64,000 nt of DNA from Bolinopsis microptera (Eukaryota; Ctenophora; Tentaculata; Lobata; Bolinopsidae): positions 4,133,408-4,197,407 of the forward strand of contig NC_087082.1 of NCBI RefSeq assembly GCF_026151205.1, given 5' to 3'. Below, one piece after another: positions 15,440 to 63,670 of the stretch. Position 1 is the first letter of the stretch, and each line of letters starts with the position of its first letter. Below the pieces are notes generated by a model that did not search any database, had not been told where the DNA came from, and saw nothing but the letters and a program-made list of their open reading frames with translations. A program made the position numbers and the translations under genes.

Positions 15440-15446
15440 AAATATT

Positions 15447-18400
15447 GATTGAAATAAATTTTCGTGCACATACAGAATGAATGGTTAATAATTTAATAAA
15501 TATGTAGACCAAGCTCTGTGCACGGGATGCTTCCTGGAAGAATCCAGTTCTTTTAGCGGGGCACCCTACCTAAAGCCAAATTGAGATATAATAACCATAT
15601 TCCTAGAGAAATAATCAGAAATCGAATACCAATCAAATAATATGATATATATGAGTAGTAACCATATTTACTATGCAAAATGCCCCAACCACATAGTGTA
15701 AATTTATATAGAGTTCAAATTCCATATCATCATTAAACCTCAATACCTAGTCAATATAATAGCCCAAGCAAAATGAAATAACTTCTTATATACCTTACTG
15801 TCATACTACAAATTAATTAAACATTTGAAATCTGTTGACCAGAGAATAAATTTCTAAGCCTAATGCAAGTGAAATAATTTAGATGCAATAATGAATGCCT
15901 AATGTGAGTATCATTTGTCAATGTCCTTGTAAAAAAGTCTGTACAAGAGATATGAGTAACTAATATAGAAGAAAAAACAGGAAGTTGTCGTCTGTTGTAA
16001 AATAAATAAAATATCTAGAATATAAATTAGAATATAAAATAACATTCAGTCAATGTGTCGTCAATAAACTGTACAATTATCAAATGTTAAAACTGGGTGA
16101 TACAGTCACCAAAAAAAAATAATAAGTATGATAAGTTAATAAATTAAATGTGGTCTATAAAACTACCACTAAGTATAATAGGTCAATAAATTAAAAGTGG
16201 TTTATAAAACTACCACTGTGGGAACCCCTTCTCCAGTTAAAACATGTCAGTCATGTGCAAAATCAATCAGAATGGTAAGGTGGTAAAAAAGGGAATATCT
16301 TTTCGATACATCAATTATGTATGCCTCAGATTTAAAAGAATTAGAAGTTACTTAGTTATCGGCGACTATGATTGCAGTGTAAAATTTGTCATATGAATTG
16401 TCGACGGTATAATTAGGGTCTGTTGTTATAGATGATAGTAGCTGTTTCTTATACGAATCACTAAAGCTTTTAACATCGGGCAGATTTCGTAGATCTGTTG
16501 GAACATTATTCCAACATTTTGCCCCCAAGTATTGAAAGTTTTTATGTGATGTTGATCTATTGACATAAAGGTTGCAGCTTTCGCCGCTCCTACTACCTCC
16601 TGATATGTAACTAAATTTGTTCATAAAGTTTGTAGGACAATTGTCATGGATGATTCTAAACATATAATTTGACAGATGGAGTTGTCGTCTAAGATGGAGT
16701 GGTAACCATTTCATGTCTCTATAAACATTAAGGCTGCTCTCTGTTTTTGGAACGTTGAGAGCTATTTTGGCTACCTTTTTGTACAGAGTGTCAAGTTCAG
16801 CAAGTTTTGTCTTGCCAGCTCTACAATAGATCGTGTCTAAATAATCGAATTGTGGCAACATGAGTGCATTGGCAAACATTTTCCTATATTTAATGGGTAG
16901 CAGTGCTTTACTTCTATACATGGCACCAATTCTCTTCATGACCTTCCTAATAATATAATCTACATGGCTTTTGAAGTTTAATTTACTATCTAGAATGAGG
17001 CCAAGATATTTTGTCTCTTTGCACTCCTTGATTGTGAAAGTTACCTCATTACACTCAATGGTTATTTCATCATGTTGGTCAACAGAATCAAACAATAGGA
17101 ATTCAGTCTTCTTTTCATTGAGTGATAATTTATTAACACTGAGCCATTTAAAGATTGTCATAAGTTCTATTTTCATGTTTATAAATGTGCTTCTGCAGGT
17201 TTGATCAAAGAATAGTGCACCATCATCTGCAAATAGAAAGGGCTTAGATAGGTTACAGGCATAAATGATGTCATTTATGAAGATACTAAATAATATAGGC
17301 CCAATGATGCTTCCTTGTGGTACACCACTCAGAACTTCTAAAAATGAGCTTAGATTGCCATTGATCCTAGTGCATTGATATCTACAAGATAAGAAGTTCT
17401 TAAACCAGGTTAAAGCAATGCCACCAATTCCATAATATGCCAATTTTTGAAGCAATATTTCATGATTCACTGTGTCAAAGGCCTTCTTAAGATCAAGAAA
17501 GATGATTCCTGGTTTATAAGACTTAGATTTACTCATATATATTTCGTCCATCAGATCGTACATCAGATAAGTTGTGGAGTGATTTTTCCGAAAGCCATAT
17601 TGATGCCGGATGAAAAGTTTGTTCTCTTCCATGTAATCAGTGAGTTGCTTGCCGACAAAGTATTCTATAAGTTTTCCTACAAGTGGAAGGATGGATATTG
17701 GCCTGTAATTATTAGGATCATCTTTCATTCCTGCCTTATGGATGGGAGTTACTCTAGCTTTTTTACAAAGGGTTGGTACAACACCTGTGTTAAGGCTCAG
17801 ATTGACAATGTGGGTCAGTGGCTCAACTATGTGTGGTACAGCTTGCTTAAGTAAAAATAGAGGCACATTGTCATATGAGGCCTTGTCATTCTTGAGCGTT
17901 TCGACATACATTAGGATATCAGTTTCATTTATTTCTTGGAATCTATCAAATGAGATATTAGAAGTTCTAGGAGGTAAAAAATCAGTAAAACTAACTCTTT
18001 CAATATTGGGGGCCTGATTTTGTAATCTTGATCCAACATTTGCAAAATGAAAGTTAAATAGCTCAGGATCATTCTCATTGATAGTTTGACAATTAGTTGT
18101 ACCAGGGGTCATATTTGATGCCAGTTTGATAGTTTTCCATATCCCTTTCTGATCATTCTTGGCACTTTTAACTTGTAGATCATCGATTACATTAGCCTTT
18201 TTGCAGGTTTTAGCTAATTTATTTCTAATATTTCTCTGAATCTTGTAGCAATCCCAGGCCTCATTACACTTTATACATTTGCTACATGTACCACATTTAT
18301 TGCAATTTCCATTGTCTCTCTTATCCTTCTTTTTACGGAATTTCTTTAGAAGAAAATGTGTATGATTAATGGCATATAAAAGTTCAGTAGAAGGTTTATG

Positions 18401-48125: not shown

Positions 48126-48241
48126 AAATACAAGGATTTAAGGATACACTGATACAAAGATACAAGGATACATGGATACAAGGATACAAGGATACAAGGA
48201 TACAAGGATACAAGGATACAAGGATACAAGGATACAAGGAT
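48126..48241. repeat. 8-bp minisatellite (GATACAAG)n
   Basis: About 14 units, the first five degenerate and the rest perfect. Two further units lie at 48008-48023, before the SINE-like element. Eight-base terminal repeats are known at 3' ends of CR1-type LINEs and their SINEs. Confidence 0.85.
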
Positions 48242-48404
48242 AAAAAAGTGATAATTCCTTTATTGAGTAAAGCGCCTAAGCAGCAAAAGAGGTATAAATA
48301 AATTCTTTTAACATACTCTGTTCTGCCAATCAGTTCTGACTGTTGATATAATTATTTAAATTTGATTCTCAAAAATGATGTAAAGTTTTTAATATGACAT
48401 AGAA

Positions 48405-49149: not shown

Positions 49150-50050
49150 GAGACACCTCACAGCAAGTAGACCAAGTAGACTTTCCCCATCCCAAAGCTA
49201 CCTAGCTATGCATTCTGATGATGAATCCACGATTCTTGCCAACTAAAAAATTGTCACAATCTCCATTGGTGCAACTAGAACTGTGCTTTTTGAGTCCAAA
49301 CAAGACAGAGACCAAGATCCTGTAAAGCTTGATGTGAAGTCTAACTCACTTTACACCATGACAAGGTCTTCACAAAATTGGTACCGCCACGGTGTGCCAA
49401 AATTATCTGATGATACCTCAACAGAGGAGAGATTTTCGATCACCTTCAGATCTCTCAGCCAGTCTCGACGAAGCATCGTTTTAATCGGTGATTCGAATAC
49501 CAAAGATGTCAACTTTGGGGATGGTACAGGTAAAGTTGGTCATTCCTTCCCTGGTAAACGAGTAAAGGCTGCCCGTGTCAAAGACATCAATCCGCACCTG
49601 TGTGCTGGATTCTCCAACGCTTTCCTTATGTGTGGCACCAACGATCTACGCTGCGAAAACGTAAAAAATGTCTCAGATATTCACGAGGCAGTGTCAACAC
49701 TGAAGAATAAACTAACGGAAATACGTCAATTGTGTCCACTTACTAACATTTTTGTTGTACCTGTTTTACCATCAAGAATCCATGAAATGAATAAAAATAT
49801 AATGCTCTACAACAACTTGGTACAGGAGATGATAAAGAACTGTTTTCCTAATATTTGGTTTCAGGGTATGTATGGTTTTTTAGATAACAATAAGCTATTA
49901 TCTGTTAAGTTCACTAGGGGTAACGACATGATTCACTTAGGAAGTAGAGGTTTAGCTAAGTTTGTAAGCCACATGAAAAACTGTGTGTTTCTGAAGGAAA
50001 AGGCGTCTAGGGAGTCAGCACAGAGGGTTGGATCCACTGGTCCAACCTAA
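49150..50050 (+). pseudogene. LINE-D1 ORF1: AlkB-like dioxygenase (broken) plus SGNH esterase
   Basis: The frame from about 49150 shows the AlkB iron motif HSDDES, then TAA at 49244-49246, then TISIGATRTVLF, the distal histidine in NWYRHGVPK, and arginines in ERFSITFR. The SGNH hydrolase follows: block I VLIGDSN (catalytic Ser), block III CGTNDLR (Asn), block V DMIHLG (Asp/His). SGNH esterases in CR1-like ORF1 proteins are established and are thought to act on lipids or esters near membranes. The AlkB part is discussed under findings. The ORF ends at TAA 50048-50050, 13 bases before the ATG of the PHD frame. The internal stop and missing N-terminus make it non-functional as a full protein. 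Confidence 0.8.
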
Positions 50051-50063
50051 CCGACACATTACT

Positions 50064-50371
50064 ATGATCATGAAATTAATTAAGGAGGTCTGTGAGCCAT
50101 GCTCAAGGCCCATCAACATTGGGCAGCCCCTACTAGAATGTGAAGCCTGTCGGACAGCTATTCATACTAAATGTTTTAAAGTAGCAGGTTTCTGCCCCAC
50201 CAATGGTCTATGGGTATGTAAGGTTTGTTCACTGAACGTGATACCACGCTACAACCCCTTCTCTGGGATGATTAGTGATGGTGGTGATAAATTCTACGAT
50301 GATGAAGGTGGATGTGATGACGAAACTATTCAAAAAATTTCGAATGTTCTAGACCAATGTCAGAGCTACTT
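50064..50371 (+). pseudogene. LINE-D1 ORF2 start: PHD-type zinc finger
   Basis: From ATG 50064 the frame gives a Cys4-His-Cys3 finger: CEPC, CEAC, HTKC, CKVC, followed by an acidic linker (FYDDEGGCDDETI) and QKISNVLDQCQSY, equivalent to the same region of LINE-D2. It is cut at 50371 by a LINE-B fragment and resumes at 51144 as TADLNRVVKEL. PHD-like fingers are known in CR1-like elements and may bind chromatin or nucleic acid. Confidence 0.75.
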
Positions 50372-51143
50372 GATTGAAATAAATTTTCGTGCACATACAG
50401 AATGAATGGTTAATAATTTAATATATATGTAGACCAAGGTCTGTGCACGGGATGCTTCCTGGAAGAATCCAGTTCTTTTAGCGGGGCACCCTACCTAAAG
50501 CCAAATTGAGATATAATAATCATATTCCTAAGAAATAATCAGAAATCGAATACCAATCAAATAATAAGATATATAGGAGTAGTAACCATATTTACTATGC
50601 AAAATGCCCCAACCACATAGTGTAAATTTATATAGAATTCAAATTCCATATCATCATTAAACCTCAATACCTAGTCAATATAATAGCCCAAGCAAAATTA
50701 AATAACTTCTTATATACCTTACTGTCATACTACAAATTAATTAAACATTTGAAATCTGTTGACCAGAGAATAAATTCTAAGCCTAATGCAAGTGAAACAA
50801 TTTAGATGCAATAATGAATGCCTAATGTGAGTATCATTTGTCAATGTCCTTGTAAAAAAGTCTGTACAAGAGATATGAGTAACTAATATAGAAGAAAAAA
50901 CAGGAAGTTGTCGTCTGTTGTAAAATAAATAAAATATCTAGAATATAAATTAGAATATAAAATAACATTCAGTCAATGTGTCGTCAATAAACTGTACAAT
51001 TATCAAATGTTAAAACTGGGTGATACAGTCACCAAAAATAAATAGTTAAGTTAATAAATTAAATGTGGTCTATAAAACTACCACTAAGTATAATAGGTCA
51101 ATAAATTAAAAGTGGTTTATAAAACTACCACTGTGGGAACCCC
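50372..51143 (-). mobile_element. LINE-B 3' UTR fragment inserted in LINE-D1
   Basis: Near-identical to 15447-16218, beginning GATTGAAATAAATTTTCGTG and ending CCACTGTGGGAACCCC. Strongly 5'-truncated, with 3' UTR only. No clear target-site duplication: the D1 reading resumes with almost no bases lost or gained. Confidence 0.85.
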
Positions 51144-51690
51144 ACAGCTGATCTTAATAGGGTAGTCAAGGAGCTTCAAAACTCATGTAACCTTTCATCC
51201 ACACACTCAAAATTCACATCCTACTTTGTCAACTTAGATGGTAACAAAACCAACTTCGATTGTCTTAACGTTGAACTCAAACGAATTGAACTAAATTTCT
51301 CTGTAATTGGTATCGCTGAAACAAACACAGATGAACCTCTTAAAGAACTATACAGAATACCGCAATACAACAGTTTTTATCAGGTCACTCAGGAAAACAA
51401 GCTGAAAGGGACTGGTGTTGCCCTCTATGTAGCAAATCACCTTAATGCAGAAGTCATAGAAAATTTTGGCTACTGCACGCCTGATAGTGAATCAATCTTT
51501 GTTAAGATCACTCAATCATCCAGCAAGCTCACACTCATCTCAGGGGTCATCTATCGCCCTCCAAATGGTGACATTCATAATTTCCTTAAGTCATTTGATC
51601 ACATATGTAAACTCCTCCCTAAATCTGGTGTACGTATAATGGGGGACTTTAATGTTGACCTTCTTAAAGTGAATGGTGACGCTGGTCATG
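51144..51690 (+). pseudogene. LINE-D1 endonuclease domain, first half
   Basis: Continues D1 ORF2: FVNLDGNKTNFDCL, FSVIGIAETNT (catalytic Glu), GTGVALYVANH, LISGVIYRPPNGD, RIMGDFNVDL (catalytic Asp-x-Asn). It stops where LINE-D2 begins; the missing half resumes at 57469. AP-endonucleases of LINEs nick the target DNA. Confidence 0.8.
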
Positions 51691-52757
51691 GCAACAATAA
51701 GAAAACCGTGGAGATCCCTGATAAAATTGCTGCACTTGTCCTGAAAATCAATGAGGAGTTCTGTGCAGAAGGAAACCCTGTAATGAATAGCGTGTTGATC
51801 AACCGCTATGAAGAAGGCGAGGGTTATCTGCCTGAACATTCAGACAATGAACCGGTGATACATCCAGAGTCTAGCATATTGACTCTTTCCATTGGAGGTG
51901 AATGCAAAGTCCTCTTCACTGAAATGAACAACCCAGTTCACACGCACAAGTGTACTCCAAGATCAGTTTACAGGATGACCAGAAGGAGTCAGGCTCACTA
52001 CAAGCACTCTATCCAGAAGGGGTCAGTCACTGGTGCAGTACGATATAGTTTCACCTTCAGATCAATAGATGGAAAGAATCGTGCCAGTACTTGTATCTTC
52101 TCTGATTCAAATGGAGCAGGTATGAAATTTGGAGAGGATCACAAAAGGAGCTTTGGTAAGTGGCTGCCTGGTCGGAATGTTTGGACTCCTACAATAGATG
52201 ACATTAACCCATATCTTGCATGTGGATACAAGAACATTGTTATTATGTGTGGTATAAATGATGTTAGAAGACCATCTGTTAAATCTCAGCGTGAAATTTT
52301 TGCTATATTTAGTCATCTAGAATTCAAGATTGAGCAAATTCAAGAGGCCAATCCAACTGCCCAAGTATTTCTTTGTCCTCTTTTACCAACTAGAAATGCT
52401 GATTTAAATAGGAAAGTTCTTTACTTTATAGAACTTATTCGTCGTGAGCTACTCCCCAAAAACTTTGGTGTCCAGTTCGTTGATGGCTTTGATGACTTCC
52501 TTGACAATAACACTGGCTTACTTTGCCTAACCTTGTCCAGGGAGTTTGACAGATATGGCCGAACGGATTACCTGCACCTTAATTGGAAGGGAGTGGCCAA
52601 ACTTGCTACTTTAATCCGTAATACTGTCCTTGTTAGGATGCATGGAGGGACTGATAGGAGGAAGAGGGGGAGGAGGGACGGTAGAGCTGGTTCAACACTT
52701 TATTCTGATGCCGCCAGAGAACAGCCTCGTGTTGAAGGCTATCAGCCTCCAACATGA
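51639..52757 (+). CDS. LINE-D2 ORF1: AlkB-like 2OG/Fe(II) dioxygenase plus SGNH esterase
   Basis: The frame is 372 residues, but residues 1 to about 15 belong to the D1 endonuclease (MGDFNVDL), so D2 begins near 51690 and its true start is missing. AlkB-like part, about 25-142: NSVLINRYEEGEGYLPEHSD supplies H67 and D69, then LTLSIGGECKVLF, distal H123 in HYKHSI, and R135/R141 in RYSFTFR. This is the family's HxD...H...R...R layout; H-to-R spacings of 12 and 18 equal those I recall for ALKBH2 and ALKBH3. SGNH part, about 150-340: block I reads FSDSN (usual GDS changed to SDS), CGINDVR, and DYLHLN. AlkB enzymes oxidatively remove alkyl groups from nucleic acids; the substrate here is unknown. 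The end overlaps ORF2 as ATGA. Confidence 0.85.
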   Translation: MGDFNVDLLKVNGDAGHGNNKKTVEIPDKIAALVLKINEEFCAEGNPVMNSVLINRYEEGEGYLPEHSDNEPVIHPESSILTLSIGGECKVLFTEMNNPVHTHKCTPRSVYRMTRRSQAHYKHSIQKGSVTGAVRYSFTFRSIDGKNRASTCIFSDSNGAGMKFGEDHKRSFGKWLPGRNVWTPTIDDINPYLACGYKNIVIMCGINDVRRPSVKSQREIFAIFSHLEFKIEQIQEANPTAQVFLCPLLPTRNADLNRKVLYFIELIRRELLPKNFGVQFVDGFDDFLDNNTGLLCLTLSREFDRYGRTDYLHLNWKGVAKLATLIRNTVLVRMHGGTDRRKRGRRDGRAGSTLYSDAAREQPRVEGYQPPT

Positions 52758-55700
52758 ATGTTCTTAAAAAAGAGGTCTGTGCCCACTGTTTAAAAAGTAT
52801 TTACTTAGGTCAATCTATAATTGAATGCTATCACTGTAATTGTCCCATTCACTCTAGATGTTTTAACACCAGTGACAAACAAAATAAAAAAGTTGACTTG
52901 TACTGCAATAATTGTCTCCACCTAGCAGTAAACCGTTATAACCCATTTAAGCTTCTGAATGATGACAATGATGACAACACTGATGCAGATGATGTAATAC
53001 GTAAAATCTCTGATGTACTTGAAAGCTGTGACTCATATTCTGTAAAAGACATAAACCGCACCTTTGCTAACGAATTACAAGTGCAAAACTCACTAATATT
53101 TCAAAATCTTGATGGCAACAATTCAAACTTTGACTCGCTGGCAATTGAAATAGCTAGGTTTACTAACAAATTCTCTGTAATTGGTCTTGCTGAAACGAAT
53201 GTAGGCCCTGAAATGAAAAACTTGTACGAACTCACAGGCTATGAGAGCTTCTATCAAGATACCTTCGACTCGAAAGTAAAAGGCTCAGGAGTAGCTCTAT
53301 ATGTCCTGAACTCCTTCAATGCTGTCAAAAATAACAACCTTTCCCAAGTGACAGAAAATCTAGAAACCCTCTTTGTAACTATAGGTAGTCTAGGAAACTC
53401 TACTTCTATAGGAGTAATATACCGCCCTCCAAGTGGCAATGCTGAGCAAGCTCTCCAAGAATTGTCGTCAATACTTGATAAAGCACCAAAACATACACAC
53501 ATTGCAGGTGATTTTAACATTAATCTCCATAGTAACCACAGTAGCATTATTGCACAGTATGAAGATGTCCTATTTAGTAGAGGCTTCTTTCCATTGATAT
53601 CATTAGCAACTCATGAAAAGCCTGGATGTAATGCCTCGTGCATCGACAACATCATTACAAATGACCTAGACTCTGTTACTGCCTCTGGAGTCATAACTGA
53701 TCACATATCTCATCACCTCCCTATATTTACAATATTTGACTGGGAAATTAGCAAGACCAAAAATATTCACAAGCACACCCAATACTATGACTATTGTAAA
53801 TCAAACACTGATAAATTTGCTGAAGTCTTGGGTAACAAACTAGACAATGAACCAATTATAGATTTTACTAACTTTCATGATATCTTTAAAAACAGCATTG
53901 ACGAAACCTGCAAACTAGCTGTACCCAAAACCACTAAGCGCACTATGCAGAACAACCCATGGATTACTGGCGGGATTATAGCCTCAGTAAACCACTGCCA
54001 TGGGCTGTATGATGACTGGGCGAAAGTCAGGAAAGTTAAGTGTAAACAAGGCGAAACTGACACAAAAGGGGGCACATGCGTGTGTTCTATCTGCTGTAAT
54101 AAAAGAAACCGTTATGATGACTACAAAGAATATAGAAAGGCTCTAAAAAAGGTTCGTAAAAAAGCTGTATCTGAATATTATTCTGACAAGTTTCTTGAAA
54201 CTCAGGGAAATTCCAAGAAAACCTGGGAACTGATAAATAAAATTCGTGGCAAACAGAAACGTGATATCAGACCTATATTTACCATAGACAATGAAAAGAT
54301 AACTGATCGCAGAGTTATAGCTAATGAATTCAATAAGTATTTTGTATCCCTAGCACCTAACCTTAATGCAGCCTACACAGAACTAGGAGAGATACAAATA
54401 AATCAGCTTCCAAGTTTCTGTGACTTCTTACCTAAATCGAATACAGCTAATATATATCTACATGACTGCTCACCTGAGGAGGTGGCTAAGATCATATCGG
54501 AACTTAAGAATGGCAAGGCTAGCGACATACCAGTACATATAGTAAAGGCAGTATCAGGCAAAATTAGCCCACTACTATCGGTATTGTACAACGAATGTAT
54601 GCAACAGGGATTTTTTCCAGACGACCTAAAAGTAGGTAAAATAAGTCCAATATATAAGAAAGAAAATGCTGAGCTTCTTGAAAATTACAGGCCTATCTCA
54701 ACCTTAGCAATATTCGGTAAAATACTTGAAAAAATCATATTCTCCAGGCTTTACAGTTTCTTCCAGTCGCAAGGATTATTATATGAAAATCAATATGGCT
54801 TTAGAAAAAATCACTCGACAAGCCATGCACTCAACTTTTCTGTCGACTACATTGAAAAATCTTTAAGAGATAAAAATCACGTACTAGGCATCTTCATTGA
54901 TTTAAGTAAAGCTTTTGACACAATCTGTCATGATAAACTGCTTAAAAAACTGAATGATTATGGAATTCGAGGGACTGCAAATAAATTGATAGCCAGTTAC
55001 CTTTCTAATAGACAGCAATATGTTTCAGTACTTGGAGAAGAATCCGAAAAACTGTCTGTAATATTTGGTGTTCCTCAGGGGTCAGTATTAGGTCCCTTGC
55101 TTTTCATTATCTACATCAATGAAATATATAGAGTATCAGACCTAGGTAAGTTTATACTTTTTGCCGATGACACCAACATATTTGTTGTAGATAAATGTAT
55201 AAAAACACTTTACTGCAAAGCTAATAAAATTCTTAAACTTGTTCATCAGTATATGAAGAGTAACTTGCTGCATATCAACATAAAGAAATGTTGCTATATC
55301 CACTTTAAGCCGAACTGTAGAAATGAACCAGATTCAAACACCAATGAATTAGAACTGACACTAAATAATATAGTAATTAAAAAGGTGGAGGAAACTAAGT
55401 TTCTTGGAGTCATTATTGACCAAAAACTGAACTGGGATGCTCACTTAAGAGCGTTAAACCGTAAATTGAAATGTGAGATAGGTAGACTATGTGGAATTAG
55501 ACGCTGTGTACCTAAAAAACTATATAAGGACCTGTACCACACCCTTTTTGAATCACACCTATGTTATGGAATATCTGTTTGGGGAGGTGTATCAAATAAT
55601 AAACTAGAAGCCATATTTAAAACACAAAAGAAATGCATAAGAATTCTCTTTGGTGATAATGATGCATACTTCAATAAGTTCAAAACATGTGCCAGAGTAA

Positions 55701-56137
55701 GGCCTATCACTAGGGATAAGACCGGTAAAGTTATCAAGCAGATGTTAGGCAAAGATTTCTTTGAACTAGAACACAGTAAACCAATCTGTAACGAGTATAA
55801 CTTCCTGACTGTCCACAATCTTCATAAGTTGCACTGTTTACTGGAAATGTTCAAAATTAATAAGTTCCAATCACCAATCTCAATGTTCTCTTTATTCAAC
55901 AGGTCACCAAGACGAGACAACTACTTCATCCCACCCACTCCATCCTCACTATTCATCTATCAATCAACTAGTATTTGGAATCACTGCCGTAAGTCAACAA
56001 GTGAAATAGACTTCTCCACTCCCATCAGTATATTCAAGAATAATCTTAAGAAATCTTTGTTAGAACTACAGTCTAAATATGACCGACAACTTTGGTGCAG
56101 TTACAACTTTGATGCAAATGAATTATCATTGAAATAG
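52754..56137 (+). CDS. LINE-D2 ORF2: PHD finger, AP-endonuclease, reverse transcriptase
   Basis: Intact frame of 1,127 residues. PHD-type finger at 9-54 (C9/C12, C25/C28, H33/C36, C51/C54). Acidic linker 75-85. Endonuclease about 110-335: LAETN, GSGVALYV, GVIYRPPSG, AGDFNINL, CIDNIITND and TDHISHHLP. A Cys-rich stretch (GGTCVCSICC) near 440. RT about 590-830: ENYRPISTLAIFGKILEKI, YGFRKNHSTSHAL, FIDLSKAFDTICHDKLLKKL, GVPQGSVLGPLLFIIYINEI, and catalytic FADDTN near 803; then FLGVIIDQKLNW and the C-terminal domain. The protein would nick target DNA and copy element RNA. Start ATG overlaps the ORF1 stop (ATGA). The order of domains and intact frame suggest recent activity. LINE clade CR1 is inferred from motifs, not from a tree. 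Confidence 0.93.
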   Translation: MNVLKKEVCAHCLKSIYLGQSIIECYHCNCPIHSRCFNTSDKQNKKVDLYCNNCLHLAVNRYNPFKLLNDDNDDNTDADDVIRKISDVLESCDSYSVKDINRTFANELQVQNSLIFQNLDGNNSNFDSLAIEIARFTNKFSVIGLAETNVGPEMKNLYELTGYESFYQDTFDSKVKGSGVALYVLNSFNAVKNNNLSQVTENLETLFVTIGSLGNSTSIGVIYRPPSGNAEQALQELSSILDKAPKHTHIAGDFNINLHSNHSSIIAQYEDVLFSRGFFPLISLATHEKPGCNASCIDNIITNDLDSVTASGVITDHISHHLPIFTIFDWEISKTKNIHKHTQYYDYCKSNTDKFAEVLGNKLDNEPIIDFTNFHDIFKNSIDETCKLAVPKTTKRTMQNNPWITGGIIASVNHCHGLYDDWAKVRKVKCKQGETDTKGGTCVCSICCNKRNRYDDYKEYRKALKKVRKKAVSEYYSDKFLETQGNSKKTWELINKIRGKQKRDIRPIFTIDNEKITDRRVIANEFNKYFVSLAPNLNAAYTELGEIQINQLPSFCDFLPKSNTANIYLHDCSPEEVAKIISELKNGKASDIPVHIVKAVSGKISPLLSVLYNECMQQGFFPDDLKVGKISPIYKKENAELLENYRPISTLAIFGKILEKIIFSRLYSFFQSQGLLYENQYGFRKNHSTSHALNFSVDYIEKSLRDKNHVLGIFIDLSKAFDTICHDKLLKKLNDYGIRGTANKLIASYLSNRQQYVSVLGEESEKLSVIFGVPQGSVLGPLLFIIYINEIYRVSDLGKFILFADDTNIFVVDKCIKTLYCKANKILKLVHQYMKSNLLHINIKKCCYIHFKPNCRNEPDSNTNELELTLNNIVIKKVEETKFLGVIIDQKLNWDAHLRALNRKLKCEIGRLCGIRRCVPKKLYKDLYHTLFESHLCYGISVWGGVSNNKLEAIFKTQKKCIRILFGDNDAYFNKFKTCARVRPITRDKTGKVIKQMLGKDFFELEHSKPICNEYNFLTVHNLHKLHCLLEMFKINKFQSPISMFSLFNRSPRRDNYFIPPTPSSLFIYQSTSIWNHCRKSTSEIDFSTPISIFKNNLKKSLLELQSKYDRQLWCSYNFDANELSLK

Positions 56138-57468
56138 GTTGATTTAGTAAACATAATCACATGAGTAAACCACGGTGTTATTGCAAAAAACCATGACAAG
56201 GGTATCAGACCTATATTGATCTAAGAGACGACACAAAACGAATCATCATACAACAAATTTTAAAATCCTGCGGCACAGGATCCTGTTGTTTTCCTACTCT
56301 ACCTCTCCCAAACCCCTCTCTCCTTCTCCTCTCTTCAGGTTTATTCTTCAATTTTTTTAAATTAGATAGCAGATGTATTTTCTTTTAAATGAAGTAATGG
56401 CATTATACATTGATTGGTATCGTATGTATGTTGTGTATAGTGTTTGCTGACTGGGTATATGCTATATATTTTGAGGCTCACGACGTCTCGTCCCATGGGT
56501 GGAGTTGTAGGCTGAGTATGTGTTCTCCTTACTTCGTATGGGGAAACATTGACAGGTTTGCCTTAGCCTTTGGGACGAGTGTTTGCCCACCGGGGATCCA
56601 AAAATATGATTATCATGGACATTACTTTAACACATAAACTAATCAAACGACTTGAATGATTCCAGAAAATTTTACTAACTGCATTTAGCTAGTTTATAGT
56701 AAATACACACGATCGCAGAATAGAGGAGCACAATTGGGTTCTTTGTTCTGCGACTGTGTTTCCTCGGTGGGCCGACAGGTTTTTTGTTGTGTAGTAGTGC
56801 TGGGGAAAAAAAAAAAACGCTTTAACTTTCAATGAGAGTACAAATTTTTAATTCTTGACCTTAGTGCCACAGTTTCTGTGGTAAAAACAAATTTATAGTT
56901 AAACGTTATATAATGTAGAAGGGCATGATTTACTCACATCACTAAGCATCTGGATGGATAATTAGCACACAAGGATAAACTGACCTTTAAACATGACCAC
57001 CAACTATACCACGTAACCATAGCTCCGAAATAAATATATTGCTCTACATAGAAACATCTGGCCTGATCCTATCACATTGTGGTCCCCAGGGGTTCGGTAA
57101 AGCCCTTACAGGCAACTGGGTCCTTTTACCAGCCACAATAAAATTGGTCATGCCAGTACTGTCATAAACTGTAACCAACTATTTAAAAATTAGACATCTT
57201 TAGCTAAATTTTAAATTTTAAGTCATAGAGCAATCTTCTTAATTTTAAAATTTTTAAGAATTATATTTTACCCTAACTATGATGTGGTGGCATTTCATAC
57301 TTAACTAAATTTCAACTTTGAAAGTAAATAGATTATTAGTGACAACAAATTATAGTTTAAGACATCCATTCTGCATTGTGTTTCCAATATTAGAATTTAT
57401 GATATGTATTGATTGAATAATTGGTAATAAATTTAACTTTTGTTTTATTAAAAACTTTTGTTTTATTA
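56138..57468 (+). other. LINE-D2 3' UTR
   Basis: 1.3 kb with no supported ORF. It holds a pyrimidine-rich stretch at 56285-56350, repeat I at 57079-57142 (GGTCCCCAGGGGTTCGGTAA) and the terminal double repeat. Confidence 0.6.
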
Positions 57469-57912
57469 ACTATACTCTTTTTGAAGAATGCTTATTTAGA
57501 AATGGTTTCGCTCCTGTTATTTCGATACCTACACATGAGAGACCAAATTGCAAACCATCTTGTATTGACAACATCCTCACAAATGACCCTGGTAACTGTG
57601 TTCTCTCAGGTTGTATAACAGATAGAATTGGTGAACATGCTCCAACATTTGAATTCACTGACATCGAATTCGAGGTTGGTCCAAAAAGTGAAAAACATGT
57701 CCAGTACTACGACTTCAGCAATGCCAACCTTAATAAATTCCTAACCCTACTGAACACTGACCTCTCAAAGCTCCACACTTCTCATGAATTCTCGGATTTT
57801 ACTAAATTATTTGATCATGTACTTGATTCAACATGCAAACTTGTAAAGCCAAAAACTACTAAACGGAATCCTATCAATAACCCCTGGATAACAGATAGTA
57901 TTTCATCAGCCG
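57469..57912 (+). pseudogene. LINE-D1 endonuclease domain, second half
   Basis: Reads NYTLFEECLFRNGFAPVISI, then CIDNILTND, then the endonuclease end and linker WITDSISSAVE, matching LINE-D2 residue for residue in layout. A run of nine A at about 57917-57925 shifts the frame; the RT continues in another frame. Confidence 0.75.
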
Positions 57913-59190
57913 TTGAAAAAAAAACATGAATTAAAAGATGCCTGGATTACATCTAAAACTAAGGCAAACCCTGATGGAAACCAGGATCTCGAGCAAACCT
58001 TCAAGGTATACCGAAGGATCCTCAAATCTGTAATTAACACTGCAAAAAATACTTACTCTTGCAACCAAATCATAGAAAATAAGCACGACCGTAAGAAGAC
58101 ATGGCAAATCATTAATGAACTCAGAGGGAAGTGTAAAAAGAGTATCAAACCCTCATTTATAATCGACAACAGAAAAATAACAGATAGAAGGGTTATTGCA
58201 AACGAGTTCAACAAATACTTTAACTCCATTGCCTCCACTCTAAATGAATCAATAGCTGACCTGCCTATACAGGCTTCTGAATTTTCAACATTTGAAGACT
58301 ACCTCCTGCCATCCAACAACAACTCTATATTTCTAACTGACTGTTCACATACTGAGCTCATGGAAATAATTTCCAAGTTGGAAAATGGCAAATCTAGTGA
58401 TATCCCAATCCGTGTGATCAAAAAGTCAGCTCATCTAATCTGCCCTGTTTTAGCCCAACATTTCAACAAACTGATGATGAGCGGGGTATTTCCCGATGTA
58501 TTGAAAGTTGGGAAAGTTACTCCTATATCTAAGAAAGGAAACGAAGAGGATGTAGGAAACTACAGACCTGTCTCTACTCTGCCCATATTTGGTAAGATAT
58601 TTGAAAAGGTGATATACAGCCGTATCTATAGTTTCGCTTTGTCACAAAATATCCTTGATGAAAACCAATTTGGCTTCCGCAAGTCCCATTCTACTAGCCA
58701 TGCTGTTAACTACTCTGTTAGGATTATTGAAGAGAGCATAAAAAAACGAAACCATGTTCTAGGAATATTTATAGATTTGAGTAAAGCATTTGATACAATC
58801 GACCATAGTACACTCCTAACAAAACTAGATAGGTATGGAATAAGAGGCAATGCAAACTGTCTCATTAAAAGCTACTTATCAAATAGAACACAGTACACAG
58901 AAGTCCTCAATGAAAAATCCGAAAACCTCATCATTAAATATGGAGTTCCACAAGGCTCTGTTTTGGGACCGCTCCTTTTTCTTCTATACATAAATGATAT
59001 TTCCAATTCCTCAGATTTAGGAACTTTCATACTATTTGCCGACGACACCAACATTTTTATTAATGGCAAAACTGTAGAAGAAGCTTATGAGAAAAGCAAC
59101 AAATTGCTAAGCTGTATAAAAAAGTATATGATCCTTAACAAACTACACATCAACATGTCAAAGTGCTGTTATTGGTTATATGCATTTTAA
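57913..59190 (+). pseudogene. LINE-D1 reverse transcriptase
   Basis: About 425 residues: GNYRPVSTLPIFGKIFEKVI, FGFRKSHSTSHAV, FIDLSKAFDTIDHSTLLTKL, GVPQGSVLGPLLFLLYINDI and FADDTNIF are all present. It ends by frameshift: after KCC, a small insertion resembling a local duplication (TGGTTAT) breaks the frame, and the protein resumes at 59180. The upstream frameshift at the A run separates it from the endonuclease. RT motifs are intact but the ORF is dead. Confidence 0.85.
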
Positions 59191-59893
59191 ACCAAAGGCT
59201 AGTAACCCAGTAAAATTTCCAGATTCGCTTCAACTCCATATTGATGGCTTTCCGATTAAAAAAACCAAAGCAACAAAGTTTCTTGGAGTTGTTATTGATG
59301 AACAGCTTTCCTGGGGGCCTCATATAACAGCACTTAAACGAAAGTTAAACTATGCCTCTGCCACCTTAAATAGAATTAGGGACTCTGTACCGAAGGAACT
59401 CCATAAAGACCTATACCACACACTATTTGAATCCCACCTTACATATTGTATCTCAGTTTGGGGTGATGCAGCACTCTTTAGGACAGCAAGTATTTGGTTG
59501 TCTCAGAAGCACTGCGTACGGGTCCTCTTTGGTGATAAAGAGGTTGCTCTATCCAGAGCCCTTGCGCTTGCAGTAGCGCGCGCCCGCCTCACTTTTCTTG
59601 ACTTGTGAAACAAGCGCGCCCGCAGTGGCGCGAAAGCACATGGTTAGGTGAAATAAAGAGGCATACCTAAACAAGTTCCTAACATGTGCAAGAACAAGAG
59701 AGTTTGACAGCCAGGCACTTGACCATACATTCTTCTAACTAGAGCACTGTAAACCACTTTTCAAGCAACAAAACATCCTGGCTTTCAAAAATTTATATAC
59801 ATATCACACTTTTATGGAAGTTTTTAAAATACTGAAATTAAGATGCCCAGCATCACTGCAACAGCATTATCAGCCATCTTCTAGAAAGGATTT
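59180..59893 (+). pseudogene. LINE-D1 RT C-terminal domain, interrupted
   Basis: HFKPKASNPVKFPDSLQLHI, FLGVVIDEQLSWGPHITAL and LYHTLFESHLTYCISVWG continue the LINE-D protein. Element H (59544-59652) interrupts it; after the duplicated ATAAAGAGG the reading resumes as YLNKFLTCAR and runs to 59893, where LINE-B2 cuts it. Confidence 0.75.
59544..59652 (+). mobile_element. GC-rich SINE-like element H with 9-bp target-site duplication
   Basis: 109 bp from TTGCTCTATCCAGAGCCCTT to GGTTAGGTGAA, flanked by ATAAAGAGG at 59535-59543 and 59653-59661. The interrupted LINE-D1 protein confirms the exact insertion. Far more GC-rich than its surroundings. No poly-A tail and no clear terminal inverted repeat. 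Other copies at 22075 and 48022. Confidence 0.8.
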
Positions 59894-60794
59894 GATTGAA
59901 ATAAATTTTCGTGCACATACAGAATGAATGGTTAATAATGTAATATATATTATGTAGACCAAGGTCTGTGCACGGGATGCTTCCTGGAAGAATCCAGTTC
60001 TTTTAGCGGAGCACCCTCCCTAAAGCCAAATTGAGATATAATAATCATATTCCTAAGAAATAATCAGAAATCGAATACCAATCAAATAATATGATATATA
60101 GGAGTAGTAACCATATTTACTATGCAAAATGCCCCAACCACATAGTGTAAATTTATATAGAATTCAAATTCCATATCATCATTAAACCTCAATAGTCAAT
60201 ATAATAGCCCAAGCAAAATTAAATAACTTCTTATATACCTTACTGTCATACTACAAATTGATTAAACATTTGAAATCTGTTAACCAGAGAATAAATTTCT
60301 AAACCTAATGCAAGTGAAATAATTTTGATGCAATAATGAATGCCTAATGTGAGTATCATCTGTCAATGTCCTTGTAAAACAGTCTGTACAAGAGATATGA
60401 GTAACTAATATAGAAGAAAAAACAGGAAGTTGTCGTCTGTTGAAAAATAAATAAAATATCTAGAATATAAATTAGAATATAAAATAACATTCAGTCAATG
60501 TGTCGTCAATAAACTGTACAATTATCAAATGTTAAAACTGGGTGATACAGTCACCAAAAATAAATACTAAGTATGATAAGTTAATAAATTAAATGTGGTC
60601 TATAAAACTACCACTAGGTATAATAAGTCAATAAATTAAAAGTGGTTTATAAAACTACCACTGTGCGAATCCCTTCTCCAGTTAAAACATGTCAGTCATG
60701 TGCAAAATCAATCAGAATGGTAAGGTGGTCAAAAAGGGAATATCCTTTCGACATAAATTATATATGCCTCAGATTTAAGAGAATTAGAAGATGC

Positions 60795-63331: not shown

Positions 63332-63670
63332 ATAAGAAGTTATTTAATTTTGCTTGGGCTATTATATTGACTATTGAGGTTTAATGATGATATGGAAGTT
63401 GAATTATATATAAATTTACACTATGTGGTTGGGGCATTTTGCATAGTAAATATGGTTACTACTCCTATATATCATATTATTTGATTGGTATTCGATTTCT
63501 GATTATTTCTCTAGGAATATGATTATTATATCTCAATTTGGCTTTAGGTAGGGTGCCCCGCTAAAAGAACTGGATTCTTCCAGGAAGCATCCCGTGCACA
63601 GACCTTGGTCTACATATATATTAAACTATTAACCATTCATGCTGTATGTGCACGAAAATTTATTTCAATC
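63332..63670 (+). mobile_element. LINE-B 3' fragment (plus strand) nested in LINE-B2
   Basis: 5'-truncated LINE-B 3' UTR in opposite orientation to its host, ending GTGCACGAAAATTTATTTCA then ATC. Flanked by TAGGAG at 63326-63331 and 63671-63676; LINE-B1 shows the single uninterrupted site. Confidence 0.85.

Follow-up and report, generated by a model that had tools for sequence, protein, structure and literature searches.

ALKBH2/3-type AlkB domains joined to a predicted SGNH esterase in LINE and Helitron elements of the ctenophore Bolinopsis microptera

Introduction

First open reading frames (ORF1s) that encode a PHD finger (type III) or an esterase (type IV) are known from LINEs of the CR1/L2 type, for example ZfL2-1 (PMC3905857, PMC4120745). 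Among the lineages studied, the esterase type was found in two vertebrate groups only (PMC4120745), and the ZfL2-1 esterase is an active enzyme that binds negatively charged phospholipids (PMC3905857). The word AlkB occurs in neither text (PMC4120745, PMC3905857). AlkB domains in transposable elements are already known: orchid Ty3/Gypsy elements carry one of the ALKBH5-like type (PMC9289625). Among the open-licence PubMed Central titles and abstract openings listed, a set that does not include Repbase or subscription journals, none reported an AlkB-bearing LINE or Helitron.

Here we analyze a stretch of 64,000 nucleotides of Bolinopsis microptera DNA, referred to as the window. A first-pass annotation, made from the letters and their open reading frames, had proposed that positions 51690–52757 are the ORF1 of a LINE with an AlkB-like dioxygenase domain fused to an SGNH esterase. 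It had further suggested that the element may repair bases in its own RNA or cDNA, or undo a host mark.

Results

Two nested LINE copies

As judged from its sequence, the window contains two AlkB-carrying LINE copies of two families, the younger nested inside the older. The features are as follows.

51696–57469, + strand: younger LINE copy; the 5' truncation falls within the AlkB domain (blastn)
51123–52757, + strand: chimeric open frame of 544 amino acids, the endonuclease piece of the older copy (51123–51695) being in frame with the ORF1 remnant of the younger
51696–52064, + strand: AlkB (2OG-FeII_Oxy_2) domain of the younger copy (Pfam; PDB match ALKBH2)
51837 (H), 51843 (D), 52005 (H), 52041 (R), 52059 (R), + strand: AlkB ligand codons of the younger copy
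52086–52620 (end approximate), + strand: SGNH esterase domain of the younger ORF1 (motifs; Lipase_GDSL_2 below the curated cut-off)
52101 (SDSN), 52251 (GIND), 52566 (DxxH), + strand: SGNH motifs of the younger copy
52754–56137, + strand: ORF2 of the younger copy with zinc finger (by eye, from the Cys/His pattern), APE-type endonuclease and reverse transcriptase (Pfam)
56138–57469, + strand: 3' UTR of the younger copy
49181–50050, + strand: older LINE copy, apparently 5'-truncated, with AlkB remnant and SGNH
49995–50405, + strand: ORF2 start of the older copy, PHD/C1-like zinc finger (all Pfam matches under cut-off)
51123–51695, + strand: 5' part of the older copy's endonuclease (Exo_endo_phos_2, E = 0.0088, under cut-off)
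57470–59608, + strand: 3' part of the older copy's endonuclease and its reverse transcriptase, frames broken

A blastn comparison of the younger copy with a copy on another contig (L013 on C10) resulted in 98.7% identity for 5,782 aligned bp. The ATG of its ORF2 overlaps the ORF1 stop codon as ATGA. ORF2 matches RVT_1 with E = 5.6e-36 and Exo_endo_phos_2 with E = 1.1e-4 (22.5 bits, Pfam cut-off 27.4). The 3' end at 57469 is common to the window copy, which starts at 51696, and to the copies L010–L013 (blastn). With endonuclease (EN) and reverse transcriptase (RT) in ORF2 and 5'-truncated copies sharing a 3' end, the element is a LINE with an APE endonuclease.

Since the younger copy begins at 51696, positions 51690–51695 and the frame upstream of them (51123–51695) belong to the older element. 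The frame at 51690–52757 is indeed open and contains all motifs quoted in the first-pass annotation, and its assignment to ORF1 holds from 51696 on. The spacings given there were exact, including His-to-Arg distances of 12 and 18; the residue numbers were shifted by 17, such that H67, D69, H123, R135 and R141 are H50, D52, H106, R118 and R124 when counted from 51690. The window copy lacks the first 42 of 169 positions of the AlkB profile as well as the PHD region, both of which are found in longer copies.

The AlkB remnant of the older copy is interrupted by an internal TAA at 49244 and is 93.3% identical to L047 over 327 bp. The reverse transcriptases of the older and the younger copy share 60% identity.

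The 3' terminus of the younger LINE (57435–57469) is built up from 1.9 exact copies of the 18-bp unit AACTTTTGTTTTATTAAA, possibly a 3' recognition tail. A repeat of ~750 bp was observed at 15445–16204, 50370–51119 and 59892–60649, together with 343 bp on the minus strand at 63332–63670; the copies are 96–98% identical to the one at 50370, itself located within the older LINE. Positions 48128–48242 hold a tandem array of the 8-bp unit ATACAAGG (14.4 copies) with open frames on both strands, and similar repetitive frames are present in L012.

The AlkB domain and its active site

The 544-residue frame matches the Pfam family 2OG-FeII_Oxy_2 with E = 5.3e-12 and 46.8 bits at a curated cut-off of 31.2 bits, and the piece 51690–52754 alone reaches 47.2 bits. 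The remnant in the older copy also lies above the cut-off (E = 6.2e-10, 40.0 bits), and the complete domain of copy L009 scores 59.3 bits. The best sequence match of the window protein in the PDB (phmmer) is ALKBH2 with E = 2.6e-5. The AlkB assignment of the first-pass annotation is thus borne out by a clear profile match. To this we add a profile of 17 AlkB domains from the host genome (A2), all 17 of which individually match 2OG-FeII_Oxy_2 at E ≤ 0.01. Searched against the PDB, it found ALKBH3 (5.4e-21), ALKBH2 (1.9e-20) and ALKBH8 (1.7e-12), and more weakly E. coli AlkB (1.7e-8) and ALKBH5 (1.0e-3). By its closest solved AlkB proteins, the transposon domain is classed as ALKBH2/3 type; ALKBH5 was not found as the closest match of the A2 profile in the PDB (E = 1.0e-3 versus 5.4e-21 for ALKBH3).

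An hmmsearch of the frames at the fetched loci yielded 49 hits, from which four cellular rows and one duplicate of the window were removed to leave 44 transposon rows (36 distinct). The iron ligands His and Asp and the glutamate at +4 are kept in all 42 rows that have a letter at these positions, and the distal His with both arginines (RxxxxxR) in 43 of 43; rows without a letter at the ligand sites are fragments. In A2 this glutamate (E94) and the tyrosines Y34 and Y36 do not vary among the 17 rows. Both tyrosines align with those of the PYTYS motif in ALKBH3; in the alignment with ALKBH2 only Y36 falls on a Tyr. In ALKBH2/3 the flipped base is contacted by the +4 glutamate and by aromatic residues nearby.

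The M-x-G-x-x-Q stretch that precedes the distal His (51975 in the window) differs between transposon and cellular domains. Arg or Lys replaces the glycine in 38 of 43 transposon rows, whereas all four cellular AlkB rows have Gly. The basic residue in this M-x-x-x-x-Q stretch may be a transposon-specific signature near the active site.

The SGNH domain

Lipase_GDSL_2 matches the window frame with E-values of 2.5e-6 to 5.6e-6 (27.4–28.5 bits), which is below the curated Pfam cut-off of 32.9, and the PDB search with an SGNH profile gave weak matches (best E = 0.0076). The catalytic residues S8, N58, D161 and H164 are invariant in all nine rows of A3, and the window family has SDS in place of the usual GDS. 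The proposed fusion of AlkB to an SGNH esterase is consistent with this sub-threshold match and the presence of the catalytic motifs. By analogy, this part would be expected to act as in ZfL2-1.

Copies and architectures in the host genome

The genome searched comprises 264,652,675 bases in 232 contigs. An ionotropic glutamate receptor lobe encoded in it (L038) has its best match in ML032222a of Mnemiopsis (E = 1.3e-35), ahead of 4zdm from Pleurobrachia (4.7e-23) and further animal receptors (8e-20 at best), which fits a ctenophore host; for a longer stretch of a second receptor (L039), vertebrate entries led the best 60 of 363 matches. The fused AlkB-SGNH protein gave 114 matches (922 first-look candidates, 114 scored); 23 of these, including the window, are free of stops and span 353 or more of the 355 residues with an identity of ≥93%. 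A query from a second family (L031) resulted in 115 matches (796 candidates), among them 28 full-length copies at 98% identity or more, the query copy included, of which 27 have no stop. The AlkB profile alone gave 151 matches (587 candidates, 150 scored) with host genes among them; all matches listed were over the cut-off. The long open frames in near-identical copies would point to recent activity.

Twenty copies of the window clade were fetched, picked for their long open frames. In 19 of them (L009–L026, L028) a single ORF of 596–1003 amino acids contains the AlkB motif; in L027 AlkB is split in two by a stop. We scanned the ORF1s of three of these copies (L009, L014 and L023) with Pfam. 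AlkB is over the cut-off in all three. The PHD finger is over its cut-off of 24.0 bits in L009 (25.8) and under it in L014 (19.6) and L023 (18.6), and the SGNH scores (26.6, 27.3 and 18.1 bits, respectively) are all below 32.9. ORF1 of the long-framed relatives has the order PHD-linker-AlkB-SGNH and ORF2 the order zinc finger-EN-RT, in agreement with the placement of the window domains in a LINE ORF1. Visual inspection suggests a coiled coil in the linker that joins PHD to AlkB. The ATGA overlap is found in the window and in 9 of the 18 window-clade copies for which a following ORF2 frame is listed, and suggests coupled termination and reinitiation, a feature of SART1-like LINEs. On the minus strand of L009 (669–4964), an open frame of 1432 amino acids adjoins a broken-off ORF2 start of 302 amino acids; perhaps another element has inserted into the LINE here.

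Further families differ in their domain content. L031 has an AlkB-SGNH ORF1 of 551 amino acids with no PHD match at E ≤ 0.01, and AlkB is also carried by elements of F611 and F646, with RTs that are 50–53% identical to that of L031. F593 (L044/L051) carries AlkB, with SGNH recognized by motif only. The AlkB ORF is flanked by EN and RT in F707 (L045/L054) and F749 (L046/L055). In F777 (L036/L050; C7:5565000-5570900) AlkB is followed by a linker, an SGNH part recognized from its motifs alone (Pfam gave no SGNH match at 0.01 in L036/L050), and then EN and RT; judged by this domain order, F777 is a third LINE architecture.

For the RT comparison, 13 of the 19 sources, all from the host genome, contributed a total of 15 rows (L012, L022, L023, L024, L026 and L051 gave no usable row). 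Identities are 49–78% between window-clade families, 32–38% between the L031 group and the window clade, and 24–29% between L050 and all others. On these values, AlkB-SGNH ORF1s accompany three diverged RT groups.

Selection

We estimated dN/dS (w) for nine pairs, which have sequences in common and are not independent. For AlkB, w is 0.076–0.245 in eight of them (the pair L023/L024 was saturated) with upper 95% bounds of 0.143–0.784, all below 1; shorter segments gave similar values. For SGNH, w is 0.099–0.591 in eight pairs (L016/L021 saturated), and the upper bound exceeds 1 in three of the eight, where changes are few. PHD plus linker gave 0.145–0.485, again in eight of nine pairs. According to the point estimates, the constraint on AlkB is stronger than that on PHD plus linker in eight of eight pairs. 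It is about equal to that on SGNH, with w of AlkB being lower in some pairs and higher in two. The transposon AlkB is under purifying selection. Within the pairs L016/L021 and L024/L026, synonymous divergence differs several-fold from one part of ORF1 to another (PHD/linker, AlkB, SGNH). The ORF1s look mosaic, and families seem to have exchanged domains.

Origin of the AlkB domain and its occurrence in a Helitron

The host has its own ALKBH2 (L032, E = 3.9e-60) and ALKBH3 (L033, E = 2.2e-40). For the AlkB tree the 49 hits were reduced to 28 rows by omitting near-identical copies and fragments, and 24 of these rows are from transposons; several branches are long, which makes details of the tree unsure. 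One branch with a support of 100/98 has on one side 22 of the 24 transposon AlkBs, from LINEs and the Helitron (the surrounding element was examined for all of the 22 but F676). On its other side are host ALKBH2/3, two bacterial AlkBs and two F777 rows (L036/L041). A group of all 24 transposon rows has a support of only 81/41. The F777 AlkB has no well-supported place among the other transposon AlkBs and may represent a second capture. In this tree the Helitron AlkB is nested among LINE AlkBs; an alternative tree in which the 19 LINE-type rows are kept together was not rejected (p-AU 0.178).

A search for relatives, in which the host was the only eukaryotic genome covered, gave 39 pattern matches in viral contigs and 35 in genome contigs, none of which was confirmed. 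Plasmid-borne bacterial proteins do match (22 records), with 29–32% identity among the five matches listed.

The Helitron is located on C10 (L029:1383-5501 and L034:1-5499). Its giant ORF has SGNH-AlkB upstream of Helitron_like_N and PIF1. In L029 SGNH scores 27.8 bits (under the cut-off) and AlkB 77.2 bits, and the frame runs on into L034 with Helitron_like_N (8.1e-23) and PIF1 (5.3e-22). The helicase was seen in this copy only; L030 contains the same SGNH-AlkB stretch as L029, and L035 the AlkB stretch. A 2A-like motif, DVETNPGP, is located in an upstream frame in L029.

Discussion

Proposed function

The architecture, the many copies, the spread over several element lineages, the conserved active site and the purifying selection can be read from the sequences themselves; for the substrate class, the family signal points to dealkylation of the ALKBH2/3 type over m6A erasure of the ALKBH5 type. 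Based on these data, we propose, with a probability of roughly 50%, that the element is a two-ORF LINE in which the ALKBH2/3-type AlkB of ORF1 (PHD/linker-AlkB-SGNH) dealkylates element RNA and nascent cDNA. The ORF1 protein would accompany the RNA of the element. AlkB would then oxidatively strip methyl groups that block base pairing (m1A, m3C or similar) from this RNA and from the nascent, single-stranded cDNA. This would allow reverse transcription to run through and an undamaged copy to be delivered. The esterase probably helps to direct the particle to membranes or lipids, a role that has been proposed for ZfL2-1. In the Helitron, the same enzyme class would act on the mRNA or on the single-stranded DNA stage.

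This proposal draws on three points. Single-stranded nucleic acids with m1A or m3C are substrates of ALKBH2/3-type enzymes. Lesions of the m1A/m3C type stop reverse transcriptases, and treatment with AlkB relieves the block in vitro. Finally, the Helitron carries the same pair of domains, and LINEs and Helitrons have single-stranded stages in common and nothing else. Two observations speak against an RNA role. The PHD region could point to a role at chromatin. In addition, RNA binding by SGNH-type ORF1s is doubtful, as constructs of the ZfL2-1 coiled coil and esterase did not form a stable complex with oligo(A) RNA (PMC3905857).

An ALKBH5-type activity would instead strip element RNA, or transcripts of the host defence, of m6A written by the host, by which decay or silencing would be escaped; this has been proposed for the orchid Ty3/Gypsy AlkB. 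The orchid AlkB demethylates m6A in ssRNA in vitro (PMC9289625), which is in favor of such an eraser. The ctenophore domains, however, resemble ALKBH3 and ALKBH2 (5e-21 and 2e-20) and not ALKBH5 (1e-3), and they keep the +4 glutamate; the ranking of ALKBH3/2 far above ALKBH5 by the A2 profile lowered the eraser from its place as first choice. Helitrons, moreover, do not move through an RNA genome. Since the domain is not ALKBH5-like, and since human L1 is promoted by m6A and suppressed by ALKBH5 (PMC7873242), we consider m6A erasure unlikely.

DNA as the substrate appears slightly less likely still. Here PHD and endonuclease would guide AlkB, which would remove DNA marks or lesions (6mA, DNMT-caused m3C) at the target or on the new insertion and so keep the insertion open and intact. 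The PHD finger in ORF1 (L009, 25.8 bits versus 24.0), the ALKBH2/3-type profile and the sharing of AlkB with a Helitron, which replicates through DNA, are all compatible with it. On the other hand, the host already possesses ALKBH2 and ALKBH3 genes, and LINE ORF1 proteins are usually partners of RNA.

A non-catalytic role is improbable. AlkB might have been retained as a nucleic-acid-binding fold replacing the RRM or zinc knuckles found in ORF1s of other types, and a part that binds RNA may be wanted, as the published esterase-type ORF1s are tabulated with neither RRM nor CCHC (PMC4120745). Yet no row with a letter at these sites has lost any of the five Fe/2OG ligands, and a pure binding fold needs none of them. 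A single chance capture of a host ALKBH exon in the window, for which nothing speaks beyond the AlkB match itself, is refuted by 114 fused-protein and 151 AlkB profile matches, by a transposon group separate from host ALKBH2/3 (100/98) and by an AlkB domain that is family-wide and under purifying selection.

Dealkylation of element RNA and cDNA can be placed in a wider context. AlkB recurs in several LINE RT groups and a Helitron although the host has ALKBH2 and ALKBH3 of its own, and this suggests that the mobile elements of the genome are under a common pressure. Tentatively, and at somewhat less than even odds, AlkB and SGNH could form a kit for replication or counter-defence, passed between unrelated ctenophore elements (LINEs of three RT groups, RepHel Helitrons) and shared by them, that dealkylates single-stranded nucleic acid during mobilisation. 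If so, enzymatic nucleic-acid repair would be a general transposon strategy, of which we found no description among the open-licence papers listed. Should the enzyme be active, animal LINEs would possess a dealkylase of their own. One could then test directly if retrotransposition is limited by base methylation of RNA or ssDNA, and if hosts use such methylation as a defence. Reverse transcriptase and demethylase, two enzymes that sequencing laboratories combine by hand, would in this case be paired in nature.

Comparison with known systems

The elements share with CR1/L2-type LINEs such as ZfL2-1 the two ORFs, EN and RT in ORF2, and SGNH or PHD in ORF1; unlike in these published ORF1s, AlkB is located here between PHD/linker and SGNH. 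The Phalaenopsis Ty3/Gypsy element likewise encodes an AlkB with intact Fe/2OG ligands. It is an LTR retrotransposon with an extra, separate AlkB ORF that is ALKBH5-like and was reportedly acquired recently (PMC9289625), whereas in the ctenophore, an animal, LINEs and a Helitron carry an ALKBH2/3-like AlkB in the same ORF as SGNH. Plant RNA viruses with AlkB (Alpha-/Betaflexiviridae, Closteroviridae; PMC9289625) are also selfish elements with an RNA stage, for which RNA repair has been proposed; as RNA viruses, they differ from the retroelements described here. With cellular ALKBH2 and ALKBH3, the best profile matches in the PDB, the transposon domains have the Fe, 2OG and +4 Glu residues in common, but 22 of 24 transposon rows form a group of their own (100/98) and 38 of 43 carry Arg or Lys in place of the glycine.
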